64,000 bases of DNA from positions 1 to 64,000 of the forward strand of contig JAFGFU010000035.1 of NCBI GenBank assembly GCA_016930915.1. The letters run 5' to 3'. Under the pieces are notes generated by a model. The model made no database searches. It was not told the DNA's origin and saw nothing but the letters and a program-made list of their open reading frames with translations. Shown one piece after another: positions 12,280 to 13,829 of this stretch (positions within the stretch are counted from its first letter, which is position 1; every line of letters starts with the position of its first letter). Made by a program: the position numbers and the translations under genes. Source of the stretch: Campylobacterales bacterium (lineage in GTDB: Bacteria > Campylobacterota > Campylobacteria > Campylobacterales > Sulfurospirillaceae).

Positions 12280-13829
<1,550 letters not shown>

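Follow-up and report, generated by a model that had tools for sequence, protein, structure and literature searches.

The described systems closest to the sequence analysed here are the highly iterated palindromes (HIPs) of cyanobacteria, the DNA-uptake sequences of Neisseria (DUS) and Haemophilus (USS) and the CtsM-methylated RAATTY motif of Campylobacter jejuni. HIP1 (GCGATCGC) and the alternate HIPs are short perfect palindromes with hundreds of genic and intergenic copies; alternate palindromes are used in some genomes, an orphan methyltransferase is associated with the inner sequence and deviations fall mainly on the outer positions. DUS and USS occur about once per 1–2 kb within and between genes, cluster at gene ends and in terminator-like hairpins (PMC12616744), are few in mobile DNA and form dialects around an invariant centre. 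In C. jejuni, uptake requires a methylated motif (PMC8468864), which is short and modified at adenine. Here we report a palindrome that is like HIPs, though with an imperfect methyltransferase link, and like uptake sequences in these respects and that occurs in the same phylum as C. jejuni.

A highly iterated palindrome of Sulfurospirillum

The window, that is, the whole 64-kb stretch of DNA that was analysed, contains 24 exact copies of the 12-letter palindrome TTTACATGTAAA, against 0.04 (maximum 1) in dinucleotide shuffles. The 10-bp core TTACATGTAA is found 33 times where 0.13 are expected. Across the 2.23-Mb genome, which belongs to a Sulfurospirillum, the 12-mer occurs 681 times and its reversed control word not once, and the 8-bp core TACATGTA occurs 1261 times versus 36 for its reversed control. 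A generic bias towards A+T palindromes was rejected, as no other 10-bp palindrome approaches TTACATGTAA. Two marks of the HIP class are thereby met, namely over-representation of one exact palindrome (681 versus 0; core 33 versus 0.13) and occurrence in both genic and intergenic copies with a clade-specific spread. TTACATGTAA, mostly extended to YTTTACATGTAAAR, is the highly iterated palindrome of Sulfurospirillum and a genome-wide mark, present about once per 2 kb. The window copies are listed below; strand is given as '.' for all of them.

12891..12902 (.), exact TTTACATGTAAA in tpiA (ILHVKE; reads SI-LHV-KEC), core kept here in 12 of 21 aligned genomes
1055..1066 (.), exact 12-mer, intergenic
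3759..3770 (.), exact 12-mer in the middle of a perfect 28-bp palindrome between convergent genes, terminator-like hairpin
7842..7853 (.), exact 12-mer, intergenic
9682..9693 (.), exact 12-mer in the nadD–rsfS fusion (VLHVKS)
14981..14992 (.), exact 12-mer, intergenic, pairs with the 10-bp core copy at 14959
18020..18031 (.), exact 12-mer in the DUF374 gene (FFTCKKR)
21549..21560 (.), exact 12-mer in tilS (FTCKLE)
25075..25086 (.), exact 12-mer, intergenic
27773..27784 (.), exact 12-mer in the asparaginase-like gene (SLHVKN)
31775..31786 (.), exact 12-mer in uppS (SLHVNG)
32572..32583 (.), exact 12-mer in a 182-aa ORF (VLHVKM; LHVK at 32571)
34003..34014 (.), exact 12-mer, intergenic, directly past a stop codon
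34705..34716 (.), exact 12-mer, intergenic
35099..35110 (.), exact 12-mer, intergenic
38127..38138 (.), exact 12-mer in the rhlE-like gene (FLHVKP)
40801..40812 (.), exact 12-mer in the ycaO gene (VLHVKA)
42337..42348 (.), exact 12-mer, intergenic, first member of a close pair
42365..42376 (.), exact 12-mer, intergenic, second member of that pair
47406..47417 (.), exact 12-mer, intergenic
48556..48567 (.), exact 12-mer, intergenic
50427..50438 (.), exact 12-mer, intergenic, directly past a stop codon
55245..55256 (.), exact 12-mer, intergenic, within a perfect hairpin-forming palindrome past a stop codon
58719..58730 (.), exact 12-mer, intergenic
1847..1856 (.), 10-bp core TTACATGTAA in argS (GLHVNW)
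7331..7340 (.), 10-bp core, intergenic
14959..14968 (.), 10-bp core, intergenic
21317..21326 (.), 10-bp core in tilS (LLHVRK)
27672..27681 (.), 10-bp core in the asparaginase-like gene (DLHVRN)
37756..37765 (.), 10-bp core, intergenic
40670..40679 (.), 10-bp core, intergenic, as GTTACATGTAAC
43937..43946 (.), 10-bp core, intergenic
59137..59146 (.), 10-bp core in the 1045-aa CcsBA-like gene (SLHVRN)
23212..23219 (.), 8-bp core TACATGTA in panC (PLHVEY)
37880..37887 (.), 8-bp core TACATGTA in the rhlE-like gene (LLHVGF)

The identity of tpiA is supported by the Pfam TIM family (1.1e-66). Two further features of the window were observed: NadD and RsfS are apparently fused in one ORF (9072–9953), and the left edge (1–87) is a perfect 9-bp tandem repeat, GAAACTGAT, of 9.7 copies.

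The DNA word and the peptides it encodes

The preliminary description, made from sequence alone, had placed the tripeptide LHV at copies or near-copies in ArgS, NadD, TpiA, TilS, PanC, the asparaginase-like protein (two sites), UppS, RhlE (two sites), YcaO, LivF, CcsBA and CinA, and FTCK in the DUF374 protein and once in TilS. All of these assignments held, the LHV sites being written with TTA CAT GT* codons, and one further LHVK was found at 32571. Ten of the gene names were confirmed by Pfam, and those of LivF, CcsBA and CinA rest on the earlier account. Three qualifications apply: the PanC, RhlE LLHVGF, LivF and CinA sites are partial copies (TTACATGT only), the NadD peptide sits in the apparent NadD–RsfS fusion, and the window copies are mainly intergenic, with 20 of the 33 cores in 10% of the sequence. 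The same account had held that one frame, LHV, predominates and that the third frame would create an in-frame TAA, and both statements proved correct. Frame counts in the window are 11 for LHV and 2 for FTCK; 420 kb of the relative G014 gave 92 LHV, 46 FTC(K)-type and only 2 stop-frame sites, an approximately twofold preference for LHV over FTC.

The 10-bp core reaches 3.08 copies per kb in intergenic versus 0.23 in genic DNA of the window, and 1.46 versus 0.37 per kb in the 420 kb of G014, so that overall copies are 4–14 times denser between genes than within them. Selection on peptide or codons as the main cause was rejected because of this higher intergenic density and because two frames are used. 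The LHV frequency per 100,000 residues is 101 in G014 and 78 in the window versus 27 in G021 and 13 in G010, both of which lack the motif; in G014, TTACATGTA encodes 102 of the 127 LHV tripeptides. When motif-rich G014 is compared with G021, in which the motif has been lost, LHV, HVK, FTC and TCK are the top four of 4257 tripeptides by difference. The LHV/FTC excess is motif-coded, and for the intergenic copies no explanation at the protein level is called for. Gene calls followed a simple longest-ORF rule, and the frame, density and LHV figures therefore carry a small error.

Orthologs from 21 genomes were compared over the tpiA neighbourhood. LHV stands at variable positions in ArgS, in TpiA and at one of the TilS sites: the word has replaced variable residues in ArgS (GLHVNW), in TpiA (RLHVK, only in G032) and in TilS (LLHVK/N, only in G014/G013). 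The peptide is also present in motif-free species at the DUF374 TCKK, the TilS TCKL and PLLH and the neighbouring gapA-like ALHVSK sites, where codon choice alone is motif-driven. Such conservation would have refuted selection on the DNA word, yet it was seen only at a minority of sites and leaves the excess unexplained. Site positions are conserved over many species in NadD, TpiA, DUF374 and at two TilS sites. The proposal that the DNA word rather than the peptide is selected is thus supported, and sites inside genes settle where the protein allows LHV or xTC(K): the protein sets where a site can live, and the DNA word sets that a site exists. A DNA-level signal can in this way impose one tripeptide on many unrelated proteins, which calls for caution before LHV/FTC conservation in them is taken to reflect protein function.

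Maintenance, spread and placement of the sites

The companion proposal, that the word is inserted, was not supported: aligned sites differ by substitutions, with 44 gap bases among 9870 aligned motif bases. An insertional or mobile origin was rejected on this ground, and sites arise via substitution rather than insertion.

Once formed, sites are retained. In alignments between motif-rich species the core is exact at 877 of 987 sites (89%), and divergence is 3.8% within sites versus 24.6% in the flanks. Towards G021 only 1 of 87 sites is exact (divergence 19.9% versus 27.4% in the flanks), whereas towards its sister G028, at about the same flank divergence, 33 of 87 are; in a Pgk+TpiA+FabI tree G021 and G028 are sisters (SH-aLRT 87) nested in the rich clade. 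An active force at work in the genus has thus been lost in one lineage. Some sites are long-lived, those in NadD and TilS being shared across much of the genus and the DUF374 site by three genera. A strong, sequence-specific and lineage-wide force, acting at the DNA level and outside proteins, maintains the palindrome; what reads it was not identified. In pooled motif-rich DNA the intergenic core is all-or-none, with 86 exact and 4 single-mismatch copies (3.3 expected); the genic figures are 153 and 36 (23.8 expected). The outer positions are degenerate: T at −6 has a frequency of about 0.7, −7 is mostly pyrimidine and −8 is seldom A.

Outside Sulfurospirillaceae the palindrome is nearly absent, its other carriers among the Campylobacterota being scattered. 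The 12-mer count ranges from 14 to 812 in 24 Sulfurospirillum genomes, and nearly all of 398 Campylobacterota genomes have 0–3 copies; outliers in other families are G362 (340), G382 (227) and G168 (86). The ratio of TACATGTA to its reversed control is about 9–49 in the Sulfurospirillaceae tested, except in G021 (2.2) and G010 (1.1). Values are likewise high for a few family f8 genomes, in which named matches are Sulfurimonas (G221, 850/58; G168, 611/41; G156, 608/30), most of their congeners being at background. G362 (family f3) and G382 and G168 (family f8) are lone motif-rich genomes in otherwise motif-free families, and this isolation suggests horizontal gain of the responsible system.

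Outside Campylobacterota, a search for the close-pair pattern returned isolated pairs only. Pseudobutyrivibrio, Roseburia, Enterococcus, Methanobrevibacter and a gammaproteobacterium were set aside, since the searched pair was the only one in 5–8 kb and the word is therefore not iterated there. Phage carriers from IMG/VR were likewise dismissed, their pairs being two-copy or promoter-type sites and contigs L099 and L102 having no Sulfurospirillum link. Several copies of TTTACATGTAAA adjoin TTGACA-like promoter elements in the viral contigs L099, L102 and L106, none of them linked to Sulfurospirillum; there the word probably serves as a phage operator and has no relation to the palindrome spread over the genome.

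Dialects vary around an invariant CATG centre. The complete genome G010, from a sister genus, has 28 copies of TACATGTA (control 25) and 685 of ATCATGAT, which numbers 27–113 in other family members. G011, G221 and G156 have TACATGTA largely without the TTT/AAA flanks. We also observed that in G010 (L123, L168–L176) ATCATGAT/TATCATGATA replace the TACATGTA family and that GATATC and ACCGGT are in excess too. A separate observation concerns GATC, whose observed/expected ratio is 0.41 in the G000 window, 0.33 in the G014 sample and 0.75 in G021; its avoidance, strong in the rich clade and weaker in G021, suggests that the rich clade has a restriction system acting on GATC.

Along the chromosome, sites settle in the intergenic ends of genes. 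Of 84 distances to a stop codon, 37 are ≤20 nt; 22 of 74 sites fall in convergent gaps, which make up 18% of intergenic bases; and six sites are the centres of perfect 28–30-bp palindromes; two window sites (3759..3770 and 55245..55256) fold as strong hairpins. On the complete G014 chromosome per-20-kb counts are flat at about one copy per 2 kb, without origin or terminus bias, so that the regional bias of MatS, SlmA, Noc or parS sites was not met there. With one IS21-rich stretch left out, the G014 variance/mean ratio is 0.43 (p 0.018), more even than random; the variation of gap lengths between G014 sites, taken alone, was not significant. The stretch itself (L136, G014:C1:920001-940000) has 1 copy in 20 kb; its gene content includes two IS21-type istA/istB copies and Sir2-, WYL- and ParA-like genes. 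On two related plasmids of S. diekertiae the 12-mer is absent, against an expectation of 22.5. The same plasmids, pSDIE1 (L293) and NZ_CP059996.1 (L274–L275), contain TACATGTA 13–14 times (control 2) with other flanks. On each there is also a relative of the orphan methyltransferase described below, with an open reading frame in one case and a seemingly disrupted one in the other.

Candidate readings and known systems

Our leading reading, to which we assign a probability of about 0.4 and hence slightly less than even odds, is that the palindrome is a DNA-uptake or self-recognition signal of natural transformation, perhaps methylated; it rests on analogy, without uptake or methylation data. 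In this view, a dimeric reader would recognize the palindrome, whose central CATG may first be adenine-methylated by an orphan methyltransferase, by analogy with the CtsM motif of C. jejuni and the Neisseria and Haemophilus uptake sequences, and damaged copies would be repaired, and new ones disseminated, through uptake and recombination of DNA in which the sites are intact. This reading accords with how dense the sites are, where they lie, their dialects and their scarcity in mobile DNA, and with the precedent from C. jejuni, but the sharpness of the core is unlike that of known uptake sequences. Of the properties expected of an uptake sequence, a density of about 1 per 1–2 kb with depletion in acquired DNA is met, and so is a competence channel, ComEC (PF03772) being found in 42 of 44 family genomes, yet these include motif-poor ones. 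That ComEC is intact in motif-poor G021 and G010 counts against the uptake reading; loss of competence as the cause of motif loss is not supported, ComEC, the sole competence gene checked, being intact in G021. An excess of single mismatches was not met (intergenic 4 versus 3.3 expected; coding 36 versus 23.8). We found no uptake or methylation data for these species and no Sulfurospirillum methylome. A bolder version, which we would not yet back over its negation, is that a palindromic signal for the uptake of self-DNA, probably methylated, is in use in Sulfurospirillaceae and in a few Sulfurimonadaceae and other Campylobacterota, with CATG-centred dialects and all-or-none, enzyme-like specificity, able to shift the tripeptides of a proteome.

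The methyltransferase in question is a 323-aa D12 (PF02086) adenine methyltransferase (G000:C23:169433-170401, minus strand) that is conserved in Sulfurospirillum as an orphan; no adjacent restriction gene was seen at the Sulfurospirillum loci inspected. Its clade A form is present in 15 Sulfurospirillum genomes (266–812 copies of the palindrome) and absent or replaced in 9 (14–420), an association with copy number (Mann–Whitney p 1.4e-4) uncorrected for relatedness. As the tree offers only 2–3 independent contrasts, the link loses its significance when relatedness is taken into account. The enzyme is not necessary, being missing from motif-rich G025, G035 and G168, and not sufficient, being present in motif-poor G058 and in many motif-poor genomes of other families; with exceptions both ways, it was rejected as sole cause. 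It shares about 50% identity with enzymes in other Campylobacterota, and its phage homologs (32–37% identity) are annotated 'ulcer associated adenine specific DNA methyltransferase'. That is the name of Helicobacter pylori HpyI, a CATG enzyme. Specificity for CATG is no more than possible, inferred only from family names and annotation, and as a partner of the palindrome the enzyme is a tentative lead, not a demonstration. A PDB search found no relatives, NCBIfam offered no useful name, and a PF01555 methyltransferase was rejected as partner, its distribution not fitting.

The rival that survives best, and remains possible, is a binding site for a dimeric chromosome-organizing or global regulatory (nucleoid-associated) protein, selected site by site. 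Long-lived individual sites under strong purifying constraint, even spacing, palindromic symmetry and scarcity in mobile DNA speak for it. Against it, sites bound by proteins usually tolerate variation, whereas the 10-bp core is all-or-none; the distribution is flat, unlike that of SlmA, Noc, MatS and parS sites; and hundreds of sites within unrelated housekeeping genes would be costly.

An unlikely alternative is a HIP-type by-product of methylation-linked repair or mutation bias, the site itself being functionless. It is favoured by an iterated palindrome on a methyltransferase-type centre, the alternate palindrome in one genome (G010), the loose methyltransferase association and the tolerance of deviations only at outer positions, as in PMC4390886. 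However, the mismatch-repair model of HIP1 (Elhai) needs MutS/MutL-type repair, and MutL (PF01119) was absent from all 30 of the genomes tested, rich and poor, which makes that model unlikely. One-off copies of HIP1 are common in cyanobacteria (PMC4390886), whereas those of the palindrome are at background, and intergenic enrichment and constraint on old individual sites suggest selection or drive.

Very little favours a self mark for restriction or defence, by which DNA with palindromes, perhaps modified, is spared or foreign DNA without them is attacked. Sharp enzyme-like recognition, a methyltransferase assigned to the CATG family by name only and scarcity in IS-rich DNA and, as the 12-mer, on plasmids are in its favour, but the methyltransferase is an orphan enzyme missing from several motif-rich genomes, and restriction normally gives avoidance of a site, not accumulation. 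A mobile (MITE-like) repeat or a protein or codon effect, suggested by the many copies and by some falling on conserved peptides, is all but excluded: an inserted unit with a target-site gap in relatives was not met, insertions (44/9870 gap bases) and a longer shared repeat unit are lacking, and density is highest between genes, with two peptide frames in use.

In the open PMC literature we found no paper with the 12-mer in this sense, and a HIP survey is silent on it; subscription literature was outside the search. Within that scope, this highly iterated palindrome is likely new; it differs from HIP1 in its length and sharpness and in that MutL is absent. If so, it is an independent case from beyond the cyanobacteria, in bacteria that lack MutL and whose close relatives have naturally gained or lost the palindrome or changed its dialect, so that why palindromes accumulate, by drive, repair or selection, becomes directly testable; it may also be an uptake code in organohalide-respiring bacteria.

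Compared with HIP1, which is 8 bp long and G+C-rich, the palindrome is 10–12 bp and A+T-rich, its single-mismatch cores are at background, it is 4–14 times denser between genes, its methyltransferase link is imperfect, and it occurs in another phylum without MutL; HIP1 proper, GCGATCGC in a cyanobacterium, is not met by either sequence or phylum. DUS and USS are not palindromes, whereas this sequence is a perfect one, and here no receptor is known and uptake is not shown. The H. influenzae uptake sequences include 764 single-mismatch to 1471 exact copies (PMC1939737), against 40 to 239 here, mostly background. The RAATTY motif of C. jejuni differs in being short and degenerate, and the methyltransferase here is not shown to be equivalent to CtsM. 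To the HpyI/NlaIII-type CATG adenine methyltransferases the Sulfurospirillum orphan is likened as a D12 (PF02086) enzyme, a link that rests on annotation.
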